The notes beneath the pieces were generated by a model. The model was not told the DNA's origin. It was given only the letters and a program-made list of their open reading frames with translations, and searched no databases. The translations under genes and the position numbers were made by a program. 64,000 nucleotides of DNA from Rickettsia bellii RML369-C (lineage in GTDB: Bacteria; Pseudomonadota; Alphaproteobacteria; Rickettsiales; Rickettsiaceae): contig NC_007940.1 of the NCBI RefSeq assembly GCF_000012385.1, positions 1,178,001 to 1,242,000 on the forward strand. The letters run 5' to 3'. Of this stretch, positions 35,260 to 40,703 are shown one piece after another (position 1 is the first letter of the stretch; the number at the start of each line of letters is the position of its first letter).

Positions 35260-37477
35260 ATGAAAAAATATATATTACTGACTATCATACTCTTAATGAG
35301 TAAGAATATATTCGCAAGAGAACAAATATCTAATCTTGTTACACCTGTTAGCTATTTTATAAATCATACATCACAAATAAAAAAGATCAAAAGTAACTTA
35401 ATCAAATATAAACAATCAGGCATATTAGGTGTGAGTGGTATGGGTAAAACTCAGGTTGCTAGGATGTACGCTTATGATAATAAGGCTGATTATGATCTTA
35501 TTTGGTTTATAGATTGTAATTTAGATATTGATGGACAGTTAATGAAGCTTGCTAAAGTTATTAACGCTCAAGCAAATTCTGCAGTCATTTCAGATAATAT
35601 TAGTATGGTAAGAAAGGAATTAATGACTTATCTAGCTAGTAAAGATAAATGGTTATTAGTGTTTGATAATTTAAAAGTAGGCGAGAATAAAAAAATAGCA
35701 GATTTTATTAATTGGGAACATAATGGCAATATTATATTTTGTTCACAGGACAGTGAATTATTACCAAATATCGTAAAAATTACTGCTTTTGAGGAAAAAG
35801 AATCTAAAATGCTTATAGAAAATATTTTAGAAAGTAATAATTCGGAATCGATAGAATTTTTAGCCCAAGAATTTAAAGGATATCCAATTCTTATGGTTCA
35901 AGGATCACAAATATTAAATCAGGTACAGGGTTTAAGCTTAAATGAATATAAGAAGCAAATACAAGGAGCTAATGATAAAATTGAGCTAAATATTAGACTT
36001 GCTATTAATGAGTTAAGTACTTCTGCTAGAAAATTACTAAATGAAATAGCTTTAATTAACAATCAAAGTTTTTCAAAAGAATTTTTAAATTGTATCACTT
36101 CGGATAAGGATCATTTAGATGATGACATTTATAATATTTCCAAATTTGCTTTAATCACTAATATTGAGCCAAATGAAGATAATCCAACATTTGAAATGCA
36201 TGATGTTATAGCAGAAAAAATATTAAAAATTAATGGATATACTAATAATAAAGAATCTATTGATCAGGTCGTTACTAATTATATAAGTTCTGTACCTTCA
36301 AGCGTGGTAAAGGCACGTATTTTTAGAAACGCTAAAACAGTATTAGGTAACATAGATATAATCACAAAAAACGCAGAAAAATATGATATACCCATAAATG
36401 TAATTTTAGGACTAAAAATAAATTTGATAACACAATATATAAATTCTTTAGATTTATATAGTGCTCAAAAATTAGTAGATTGGTTTAATGAAAATGATAG
36501 CAAAGGTAATTTTAAATTATCAAAAATGCGATTATGCCTCATATTTAAGTCTTATAGGTGGATATTATAGGCATCTTGGAAACCATCATAAATCAATTGA
36601 ATATGATATAAGAGCTAAAAAAGTTTATGAGGATATTCAAGGATATAATTCTTACCGATGTAATATAAATTATACTTTGGCACTGGCATATATTGAACTC
36701 GGTCAGCTTGAAGAAGCAAAAAATAATATTCAAATTATGGAGGATATGTTTAACGGTGGGTTGGTTGATAAAGCCGATATTATAACTTTATATTCTGCAA
36801 GAGCTAGATTGTTCGCCATGCAAAGTAAATATGATGACGCACTAGAACAAATTAATAATACTATAAATACAGCTGTAGAGAATGGAATAAATCCTCAAGA
36901 TGTATTTCTAAGCAATATATATCTTATTAAAGCAGATATATTAAATAACCTTGGTAAATATGAAGAAGCTTATTCTCAAGCACAACAAATATATGATATG
37001 AATAAGTTAGTTAAGAAAGAAAATCATCTGATATTTGGGCGTGTTTTTACTCAAATGTCAAAAGCAAAACTTGGTCTCGGAAACCCTAAAGAAGCACTAG
37101 AATATGCAGAAAAGGCTAAAACAATTTTCATTAGCGATACAAATAGACCTAATAAGGAAATTATTACATCACCAGATACAAGCTTGGCTAAAGCATTTGT
37201 TGCTGAAGGTAATGCACTAGCTAGCCTTAATAAAAATGATGAAGCAGTAGAAGCTTACGGCATAGCAGAAAACATATATTGGAATAACTATAAAGAAAAT
37301 ATGAAAAATGTAGACGAGATAAGTATTATGTATTTAAACGCTGCTAAAGCAAGCTGCCATGTACCTCTTAAATCTTTCTATAAAAACTTTCGTGATCATC
37401 AAATAAAGAAATTCGGGGAGCAGCATCCAAAAAGTATAGAAATACTAAAGCTCAATTGCCATAATTTAAATAATTAG
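35260..37477 (+). pseudogene. Exported NLR-like STAND ATPase with TPRs, frameshifted
   Basis: Two frames that join into one protein of about 738 residues. A signal peptide (residues 1-19, ending NIFA) leads into an NB-ARC-type ATPase. Walker A GVSGMGKT is at 57-64, Walker B LLVFDNL near 131-137, a GLPL-like GYPIL near 207, and an exact MHD motif (FEMHDV) near 312. The second frame (from about 36527) carries tetratricopeptide repeats such as AYIELGQLEEAKNN, LNNLGKYEEAY and LGNPKEALEYAEKA. The break falls at a run of five As (36522-36526): four would restore LSKCDYASYL. Mutation, slippage or sequencing error are all possible. Function unknown. Confidence 0.75.
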
Positions 37478-38825: not shown

Positions 38826-40154
38826 GTGAAACATACTATTATTAAGATAGTTTCTTGTATTATAGCATTTTTGATTTTTCTTATTTTTAATATTTCAGTT
38901 TATTATTGTTTAATATATTATCAAAAAAAAGAATATAAGGGATTACTCAAAGCTTATGCGAGTAGTATATCAAGCTTACTTACACAAGATCTAGAAAATG
39001 CTCTTAATAGCTCCATACCAAATAAAGAATTCTTCTTATTTAAAGGTTTTGAAGTTATTCCTAAATCTAAAACTACTGTGAATTTAATCACAGTAAGTGC
39101 CAATTCTATAAGAGTAAGAAATAAAAAAGAAGAATACATATTTAATTTACACAACTTAAAAGAAATCATAAATAAAATATTTCCTCCTTTTATAATTTAT
39201 AAATTAAGCTTAAATAATCATGATATATTTTCCGAAAGAATAAATATAGATCAATATTTAACTGAAAGTAAACTTGTAGAAGCAAATGGTATTTTAAATT
39301 TAAAATTGGGTATTAAGAAAGACTCGCAATTTTATTTAGATGGAGCATATTTATTACGAAGAAATATGTTAATTTATAGTATCAGCTCATTTTTAACTCT
39401 TTCAATATTAGTATCTATATATTTTAAAATATATAATACCATACAGCAGAATTTTAGAATTTTACATCAAGAAATATATGAAGAAACTGAAATAAATACA
39501 GCATTGATAAATAATAATAAAGCCGATTATGACTTAAGAAAGCTCTTTATAAAAAAATTAACAGAAATATATTTAAAACAAGAATTAGGAGATACATACA
39601 ATCCAAATGATTTTCCATTTAAGAATCAACTTTTTCCTATAAACTTAACTGATTTATCCCTTACTAAAATTAATATTGAAAATTTAATCAAGCTATTACA
39701 AGGATATTTCGCTCCTTATTTTGCTAAAATTGGTATTAGAACTACTAACAATATAAAAGAGAGTGAAATTAACTGCTCTCTTGAAGTTTTTTATCAATTA
39801 ATATTTAGCTTGGTATTTAATTTGGTAAAATTTATAGATAGGCAAAGCAATATTCCTCAAATAATTAAGATAGATTTTAACCAAGATAAAATTACTATTA
39901 CTAACGATTGTTTTTCATTAGATGAAAAGAAAATGATTAAATTATCTGATATTATAATAGAAGAATATACAGATCTTTTTATTTTAAATTGCTATAAGAT
40001 ATTTAAATCGTTAAATGAACATAAATTTAAATATAATATCTTCTCGCATGATGGCTCACACTTAATAGAAATAGTGTATCCTCCATTAAATAACTCTAAT
40101 TTAAATACAGGGAAGATATTAGATTTCACTAAATATTTAAACAATAAAAACTAA
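38826..40154 (+). CDS. Membrane protein with degenerate histidine-kinase ATPase domain
   Basis: 442 residues from a GTG start (AAAGGT 8 bp upstream). Membrane segments at about 8-30 and 180-200 enclose a periplasmic region of 150 residues. The cytoplasmic part lacks an H-box histidine. Its C-terminal third follows the order of a GHKL ATPase: an N-box-like EVFYQLIFSLVFNLVKFID, a G1-like KITITNDCFSLDEKK, and an end resembling LGL..K/GT..I in LFILNCYKIFKSL and GSHLIEIVYP. Key catalytic Asn/Gly residues are altered, so it is likely a pseudokinase. Alternative: an unrelated membrane protein. Confidence 0.5.
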   Translation: MKHTIIKIVSCIIAFLIFLIFNISVYYCLIYYQKKEYKGLLKAYASSISSLLTQDLENALNSSIPNKEFFLFKGFEVIPKSKTTVNLITVSANSIRVRNKKEEYIFNLHNLKEIINKIFPPFIIYKLSLNNHDIFSERINIDQYLTESKLVEANGILNLKLGIKKDSQFYLDGAYLLRRNMLIYSISSFLTLSILVSIYFKIYNTIQQNFRILHQEIYEETEINTALINNNKADYDLRKLFIKKLTEIYLKQELGDTYNPNDFPFKNQLFPINLTDLSLTKINIENLIKLLQGYFAPYFAKIGIRTTNNIKESEINCSLEVFYQLIFSLVFNLVKFIDRQSNIPQIIKIDFNQDKITITNDCFSLDEKKMIKLSDIIIEEYTDLFILNCYKIFKSLNEHKFKYNIFSHDGSHLIEIVYPPLNNSNLNTGKILDFTKYLNNKN

Positions 40155-40157
40155 ATA

Positions 40158-40595
40158 TCATATTGAATATTTTTCTTGGACACGCTGATGTAATATCCAT
40201 TCAATAATTTTATTATCAATAGATTCATCAGGTGTAGGGCGGTAGTAATTAAATACTTCATTTAAGGTTTGAGAAAATTCTGTTTCAGAAACTACTAGAT
40301 TTAATTTTTTTATTGTTTTTATTATCTCAGGCAAGATTTTTTGAAATAAGATATAATCATCTTGACCAAGGTAACCATTAACTTTAATATTAGGATTATA
40401 TAAATCCTTAATTGAAACACCTAAAGTATCAGCTATTGTTTGTAGAATCTCTGCGGAAGGTTTCCTGGATATACCTTTAATAATGTTATAAACACTATTT
40501 TTCTTTAGCTCTGCCTTTCTCTCAAGTTCTGTAATTTGAATATTACGTTCCTTTATGAATTTATATAAATTCTTTTGCAATACTGTATCTGACAT
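40158..40595 (-). CDS. XRE-family transcriptional regulator
   Basis: 145 residues from the ATG at 40595 (MSDTVLQ). The helix-turn-helix covers roughly 8-62: NLYKFIKERNIQITELERKAELKKNSVYNIIKGISRKPSAEILQTIADTLGVSIKDL. The C-terminal 80 residues have no known domain and could bind a ligand or dimerise. It converges on the kinase-like gene with 3 bp between the stops. Dyads upstream at 40637-40670 and 40704-40721 are possible operators. Confidence 0.85.
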   Translation of the reverse strand: MSDTVLQKNLYKFIKERNIQITELERKAELKKNSVYNIIKGISRKPSAEILQTIADTLGVSIKDLYNPNIKVNGYLGQDDYILFQKILPEIIKTIKKLNLVVSETEFSQTLNEVFNYYRPTPDESIDNKIIEWILHQRVQEKYSI

Positions 40596-40703
40596 GAGTT
40601 TCAAATTATAGTTGTATTTTTATAACAAATTAAAACTTTCTTTGTAAAAATTAAAACTAAAGAAATATTATAGTTGATATTTTATTTTAAAAGTGGTTAT
40701 TAT

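Follow-up and report, generated by a model that had tools for sequence, protein, structure and literature searches.

A decayed STAND gene with an export signal in Rickettsia bellii and its pseudo-histidine kinase neighbour: a putative trans-envelope sensor module

Introduction

STAND/NLR proteins are regarded as cytoplasmic owing to their need for ATP. Here we describe a 64,000-nucleotide stretch of Rickettsia bellii RML369-C (contig NC_007940.1, positions 1,178,001 to 1,242,000; referred to in its entirety as the window) that carries a broken STAND gene encoding a signal peptide, an NB-ARC-like NTPase and a tetratricopeptide repeat (TPR) array, along with genes for a pseudo-histidine kinase and an XRE-type regulator. 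By sequence comparison we identify the STAND gene as a decayed copy of a widespread bacterial family, the members of which have a conserved export signal and conserved nucleotide-binding motifs, are frequently paired with the pseudokinase and often with the regulator, and co-occur with Tlc nucleotide translocases. The exported STAND protein is, most likely, a periplasmic nucleotide-dependent sensor partnered with the pseudokinase. That the locus as a whole represents a decayed copy of a trans-envelope module, in which a periplasmic STAND sensor would use host-derived ATP and signal via the pseudokinase, is a reading to which we give even chances.

Results

A broken gene from a family that is intact elsewhere

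The STAND gene is split over two reading frames of the window, with the following features (coordinates refer to the window):

35260..36570, plus strand: N-terminal piece of the broken STAND gene, signal peptide and NB-ARC-like NTPase, 436 amino acids (open reading frame, profile matches)
35260..35316, plus strand: predicted Sec signal peptide, 19 residues ending IFA, pattern kept in relatives (simple rule)
35428..35451, plus strand: Walker A, GVSGMGKT (sequence motif)
35653..35670, plus strand: Walker B, LLVFDN (sequence motif)
35878..35892, plus strand: GLPL-like GYPIL (sequence motif; proline invariant in 10 deep members)
36196..36204, plus strand: MHD motif (sequence motif; histidine invariant in 10 deep members)
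36488..37477, plus strand: C-terminal piece in the other frame, TPR array, 329 amino acids (TPR_12, E 1.2e-18)

The initial annotation had read the Walker A, Walker B, GLPL and MHD motifs, in this order and followed by TPRs, as an NLR-like architecture, and that reading is borne out. The frame change that it had marked near 36522-36526 indeed falls within the overlap of the two open reading frames (ORFs), and homology switches frames near residue 423. Note that the two ORF pieces were analysed separately and never joined. NF040586, an NB-ARC plus TPR model, covers both pieces in order, with profile positions 8-214 matching the first (E 3.8e-25) and positions 434-670 the second (E 1.5e-6); the first scores 88.5 bits, below the cut-off of 300, the second is likewise below it, and no protein scanned reaches it.

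Searches with single-domain profiles gave a divided answer: the TPR array is plainly recovered, whereas Pfam NB-ARC scores 18.4 bits on the window copy (E 0.0014) and stays under its cut-off of 23.5. That cut-off is passed by four relatives (L102, 39.5 bits; L103, 25.9; L168, 40.5; L176, 34.5; L and G numbers are our handles for loci and genomes) and missed by others (L035, 19.1; L017, 17.9; L174, 20.6), and a Pfam NB-ARC match is absent from L166 at E 0.1. The best NCBIfam match along the NB-ARC region is NF040586 (L035, 100 bits; L174, 190; L176, 224; L002, 214; L103, 78). Given the ordered match to NF040586 and the same-family relatives over the NB-ARC cut-off, we consider the NB-ARC match of the window copy to be more than chance. 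Searching sequences of solved structures with the first piece returned nothing at E up to 1.

In G054, the orthologue (98% identity across 423 residues) has a break as well, at a different place. Since the same gene carries a different lesion there, the break in the window can be explained without invoking a sequencing error, short of a formal exclusion. Intact frames are nevertheless found in other members of the family: an intact paralogue with a 786-amino-acid frame, 76-77% identical to the window copy, is located at 221 kb in the same genome (L035:6049-8409), and 37 intact relatives were retained after removing 8 exact duplicates, 2 low-identity rows, 1 open frame and 8 members without a matching start. 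What the initial annotation overlooked, then, is membership of a decayed multi-copy family and the partner genes that start 1.3 kb downstream. Two further copies in this genome, near 611 and 873 kb, are broken; the former (L173:1032-5882) is split around a stretch with SpoT-like and MFS genes, which repeat the upstream pair in inverted order. Elsewhere, three copies stand in tandem, the third running past the end of the locus (L016:5001-11271).

Relatives occur in 51 of 85 Rickettsiaceae genomes, with a maximum of 12 matches in one genome, and all 30 relatives found in a search of genome contigs come from records of Rickettsia or other Rickettsiaceae. Seven plasmid records have a match, four of them Megaera/Megaira. 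Eight stretches of viral contigs fit a pattern, none of them coding for a relative, in a search that concerns close relatives only. For the 25 closest of 134 pairs (pairs share members), the ratio of non-synonymous to synonymous substitution rates (dN/dS) ranges from 0.14 to 0.46, and in 22 of these 25 the N-terminal half has a ratio at or below that of the TPR half. We read these low ratios as purifying selection on the family which, taken together with the intact paralogue and the 37 intact relatives, points to a functional protein.

The export signal and the nucleotide-binding motifs are conserved

The initial annotation also saw an export signal at the start of the protein, and this stands. 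The window copy meets a simple n-h-c rule for signal peptides (this rule, like our transmembrane calls, is a simple hydropathy script and not a trained predictor) that is passed by 34 of the 37 intact relatives and by 3 of the 36 window ORFs of at least 200 amino acids, the STAND gene being among the three. In the 37 aligned members the leader begins with charge, continues into a hydrophobic core and usually closes with an A-type end even though individual letters vary, and deeper members of the family have hydrophobic leaders too. Three intact relatives fail the rule: L014 (short core), L032 (weak) and L060, whose true start is probably further upstream, the frame there still containing a signal-like stretch. 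The conservation of the leader among homologues means that the window start is not misplaced, and the possibility that there is no real signal peptide can be ruled out. These patterns suggest that the STAND protein is exported from the cytoplasm via Sec.

The nucleotide-binding motifs are conserved as well. Among the 37 intact members, Walker A residues G57, G60, G62 and T64 are present in all and K63 in 36, and D138 and N139 of Walker B are again universal. Even across 10 deep members, which are 21-54% identical to the first row of their alignment, G57, G62, K63, D136, P211 and H316 are invariant. In the 37-member alignment, the NB-ARC half is the more conserved half of the protein.

A two-transmembrane pseudo-histidine kinase often adjoins the STAND gene

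Two open genes, arranged tail to tail, follow the broken STAND gene in the window:

38826..40154, plus strand: partner gene, two-transmembrane pseudo-histidine kinase with outside loop, 442 amino acids, GTG start (family and profiles)
40158..40604, minus strand: XRE-type regulator gene, 148 amino acids (HTH_26, E 6.5e-11)

The window partner matches no Pfam family over cut-off. Its family, of about 450 amino acids, is present in 34 of the 85 Rickettsiaceae genomes, where we typed 58 partner places from 68 rows, merging 3 split-row pairs and omitting 7 small fragments. In at least 41 of the 58, the partner immediately precedes a STAND gene on the same strand, with spacings of -6 to +386 bp as measured between matches rather than gene ends. 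In 30 of these 41 the STAND gene is within 40 bp or overlaps, and STAND genes only 29-39% identical to the query are among those so paired. One of the 58 places has the order STAND-then-partner, as in the window.

In 11 partners, two transmembrane segments start 164-225 residues apart. A profile of ten deeper partners (alignment A9) matches five kinases of this genome with a probability of 97.3 (E 2.2e-11), and the deeper partners match the Rickettsia partners with a probability of 92.8. Keeping in mind that several of the sequences are incomplete at the N-terminal end, an H-box is found in 0 of 21 partners, a G1 box in 2 of 21 and a G2 box in 0 of 21; equal patterns recover 4 of 5, 5 of 5 and 4 of 5, respectively, in the kinases. 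Judging from these profiles and motifs, the cytoplasmic part of the partner descends from histidine kinases and the protein is best named a pseudo-histidine kinase.

A protein in G016 that resembles a symporter-kinase also matches the partner family (probability 96.9). In this protein (L098:1-2343) a sodium:solute symporter (SSF, E 1.9e-10) is fused to a kinase-like domain resembling the pseudokinases; the matching symporter-kinase of R. bellii has an H-box, and none was seen by eye in L098. A short C-terminal tail of the SNVVxL / KVISFAKY type closes most of the aligned pseudokinases (alignments A6 and A9) across divergent lineages, and this conserved tail may be an output contact.

A regulator frequently completes the module. 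Of 18 distinct loci that pair STAND gene and partner and offer 400 nt or more of downstream sequence, 13 have a convergent XRE-type gene after the STAND gene (counted by hand with duplicate places removed; L061 and L062, which are 97% identical, are both included). The pair or the triad is also encountered in other Rickettsiales families (L166, L167, L168, L174), the L166 module adjoining a TraL gene. In the R. bellii genome, the window STAND gene is broken and the pseudokinase, the regulator and the 221-kb STAND paralogue are open. In L194 (G542), reading by eye suggests an ORF resembling the kinase partner, followed by an exported protein with TPRs only, from which NB-ARC seems to have been lost, and a convergent gene with a helix-turn-helix (HTH).

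A sister architecture fuses NB-ARC to a LuxR-type HTH across a transmembrane segment

A second architecture in this genome combines a LuxR-type HTH (GerE, E 5.9e-6), one transmembrane segment, an NB-ARC region over cut-off (28.6 bits) and weak TPR matches. In 15 of the 85 Rickettsiaceae genomes there are relatives of this form at E up to 1e-30, some of them partial. One would expect a DNA-binding N-terminus to lie in the cytoplasm, so that the single transmembrane segment would put NB-ARC outside.

In a sample of the class (385 genomes), the 18 loci outside the R. bellii genome among the matches listed comprise 8 exported STAND genes (one broken), 8 LuxR-type/transmembrane/NB-ARC genes (one divided between two frames, another whose N-terminus lies beyond the locus) and 2 that are partial. 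All 8 exported genes have a similar two-transmembrane-type, partner-like gene upstream, namely one that entered alignment A9. LuxR assignments were made by eye except for L002 and L006, which were scanned with Pfam, and the locus review extends to all but three of the STAND-type places in the class sample (G427, G612 and G537). Among relatives of the LuxR form, no clear transmembrane segment was seen between the N-terminus and NB-ARC in L124, where the segment is weak, or in L125, which has a different N-terminus.

We considered whether the two architectures, both predicted to place the NTPase outside, might have arisen independently. A 20-row tree of the NB-ARC region, which has no outgroup and lacks 9 of 29 intended rows missed by a motif filter, puts exported and fused forms on two sides of one weakly supported branch (73/79). 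With the forms on either side of a single branch, independent origin was rejected as a reading, and we treat the fused form as a sister and not as independent proof. A further protein of this genome, near 701 kb (L001:277-3579, L037), is at least 1101 amino acids long and has NB-ARC over cut-off, preceded, by eye, by a lipase-like part (GYSLG) and followed by TPR-like repeats.

Genomes with the exported family also carry Tlc translocases

Tlc proteins are located in the inner membrane and import host nucleotides. This genome has five Tlc-family genes, as opposed to 0 of 14 control genomes. STAND and Tlc searches were run on the same samples with equal totals, and the identity of unlisted genomes is assumed. 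In the class sample, 15 genomes, including this one, have the STAND family at E up to 1e-20 and 44 have Tlc at E<1e-50 (55 at E up to 0.001); all 15 STAND-positive genomes are among the 44. In a sample of the order (261 genomes), STAND is found in 35 and Tlc in 97, and all 35 carry Tlc. Considering only the order sample outside Rickettsiaceae, STAND occurs in 3 of 46 Tlc-positive and 0 of 164 Tlc-negative genomes (p about 0.01).

Discussion

Why should an ATPase be exported into a compartment usually thought to be devoid of ATP? Tlc proteins in the inner membrane take up host nucleotides, so ATP should cross the periplasm on its way towards them, and it is on this ground that we propose a periplasmic ATPase. 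We imagine the following chain of events. The STAND NTPase, with its NB-ARC domain and TPR sensor, would be exported by Sec and would reside and act in the periplasm, where it would bind a nucleotide that we infer to be ATP, drawn from the host cytosol through outer-membrane pores and en route to the inner-membrane translocases. Encounter of the TPRs with a ligand, or a shift in the ATP/ADP ratio, would change the state of the STAND protein, which may then make physical contact with the membrane-bound pseudo-histidine kinase via the latter's outside loop. The signal would thus run inwards, with the catalytically degenerate cytoplasmic domain relaying the change, probably to the neighbouring XRE-type regulator as output. 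We favour the periplasm as the site of action because the operon-like partner has two transmembrane segments and an outside loop, and because of the HTH-transmembrane-NB-ARC sister architecture.

A number of observations weigh against this proposal. Outside Rickettsiaceae, the association between STAND and Tlc within the order rests on 3 genomes, shared ancestry and lifestyle confound it and could be an alternative source of the pattern, and some members of the Tlc family carry other nucleotides. Pairing is far from universal: 16 of the 58 partner places have no STAND gene nearby among the matches listed (17 have none directly downstream, counting the STAND-first place), and many STAND copies, including the intact one at 221 kb, lack an adjoining pseudokinase. 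As for the partner itself, in 4 of the 11 the kinase-like part contains a weaker third hydrophobic stretch, Rickettsia-type partners taken alone match kinases weakly (probability 39.6), and of 15 partners scanned just two give a HATPase_c match (E 4.3e-5 and 2.7e-4), each below the 26.4-bit cut-off. Finally, the Walker A lysine is replaced by glutamate in the intact copy L007, and one of two adjacent copies in L102 (L102:6994) has, by eye, a degenerate Walker A.

There are a number of other scenarios that might explain the exported STAND protein. One, which we deem unlikely, is that it is a secreted effector, brought to the periplasm by its signal peptide and then released by a further step (via TolC, for instance) into the ATP-rich host cytosol, where its TPRs would bind host proteins. 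Precedents point both ways: RARP-1 is reported to be secreted by Sec-TolC in R. typhi, but to be periplasmic in R. parkeri (PMC9553169), and some Orientia TPR proteins carry Sec signals, for which the same two options, periplasm or release, have been noted and TolC release proposed (PMC10732058). The many solo STAND copies would be readily accommodated by secretion; frequent pairing with a membrane protein bearing an outside loop, genes for STAND and partner that overlap at some loci, and an architecture (LuxR-transmembrane-NB-ARC) that cannot be released whole all argue against it. The initial annotation had offered a periplasmic pseudo-ATPase as its other option. Such a protein would have ceased to use nucleotide and would serve as a scaffold or bind through its TPRs, and the general view of the periplasm as free of ATP, the aberrant Walker A motifs in L007 and L102 and the resemblance of L194 to an exported TPR-only form would be in keeping with this. 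However, such a protein should lose Walker A and B, the GLPL proline and the MHD histidine. That these are kept over deep divergence, the Walker residues and the MHD histidine ranking among the most conserved positions, and that the NB-ARC half is better conserved than the rest, makes a pseudo-ATPase improbable in our view.

Nor do we put much weight on envelope defence or mobile-element surveillance, where the module would sense conjugation or phage entry from the envelope, much as STAND defence proteins do within the cytoplasm, and spread with integrative elements, a scenario we rate about as low as the pseudo-ATPase. The multi-copy, patchy and decaying distribution would suit it, as would relatives on Megaera/Megaira plasmid records and TraL beside L166; the window HTH protein matches the defence regulator model capH (E 1.4e-6), which may be a general XRE match, and the first window piece weakly matches mad8 (E 0.0067). 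Against this, five STAND-type proteins and one pseudokinase have no PADLOC match at E 0.001, and the search of viral contigs turned up no close relative. A last scenario, in which the gene is just a pseudogene from a TPR family and has no particular biology, derives its appeal from the lesions in the window copy, in its G054 orthologue and in two other copies of this genome. It is contradicted for the family by the intact paralogue, the 37 intact relatives and low dN/dS, and holds for the window copy alone; as an account of the whole it is very improbable indeed.

How does a periplasmic STAND sensor with a pseudokinase partner compare with known systems? MalT and AfsR are STAND regulators and NLR/Apaf-1 proteins are receptors; all likewise have an NB-ARC-like NTPase with MHD and a TPR-type sensor, but they are cytoplasmic, whereas the present protein is predicted to be exported and no effector domain of its own was seen. 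The FxSxx-COOH system TPR protein (NF040586) belongs to an NB-ARC plus TPR family as well, from which the present one differs by a signal peptide or transmembrane segment and by a pseudokinase or HTH partner. With regard to how it might work, the module resembles LuxP-LuxQ and TorT-TorS, where a soluble exported sensor acts on a two-transmembrane kinase-type receptor; here, the exported component is instead a STAND protein with nucleotide-binding motifs, and the receptor no longer has its kinase motifs. RARP-1 of Rickettsia, too, has a Sec signal and a repeat domain and is exported, but its repeats are ankyrins and no NTPase is mentioned in the accessible parts of the article (PMC9553169), in contrast to the NB-ARC and TPRs found here. 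The Sec-signal TPR proteins of Orientia RAGE elements are similarly exported, multi-copy and mobile, yet NB-ARC has 0 occurrences in the accessible text and no partner module is described there (PMC10732058). TPR genes or NTP-dependent conflict systems are treated in general terms in passages of PMC1800911, PMC2635572 and PMC7159879. A literature search over titles and abstract openings revealed no account of a STAND-pseudokinase module, which, with subscription papers mostly uncovered, is weak evidence of absence.

More broadly, it is possible, if doubtful for now, that intracellular Alphaproteobacteria have trans-envelope signalling of a new class, in which NLR-like ATPases placed outside the inner membrane would run on host ATP that reaches the periplasm and would use as output either a pseudokinase (in the exported form) or, directly, a single-transmembrane LuxR-type regulator (in the fused form). 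Such a class would mean ATP-driven sensing of the host cell from a bacterial compartment that is usually considered free of ATP. It entails a testable claim, namely that usable host ATP is present in the periplasm of energy-parasitic bacteria and is sensed by them, and in these samples the exported ATPase family is seen solely in genomes that carry Tlc. If true, bacteria that are otherwise poor in regulators would gain a means to read their host cell.
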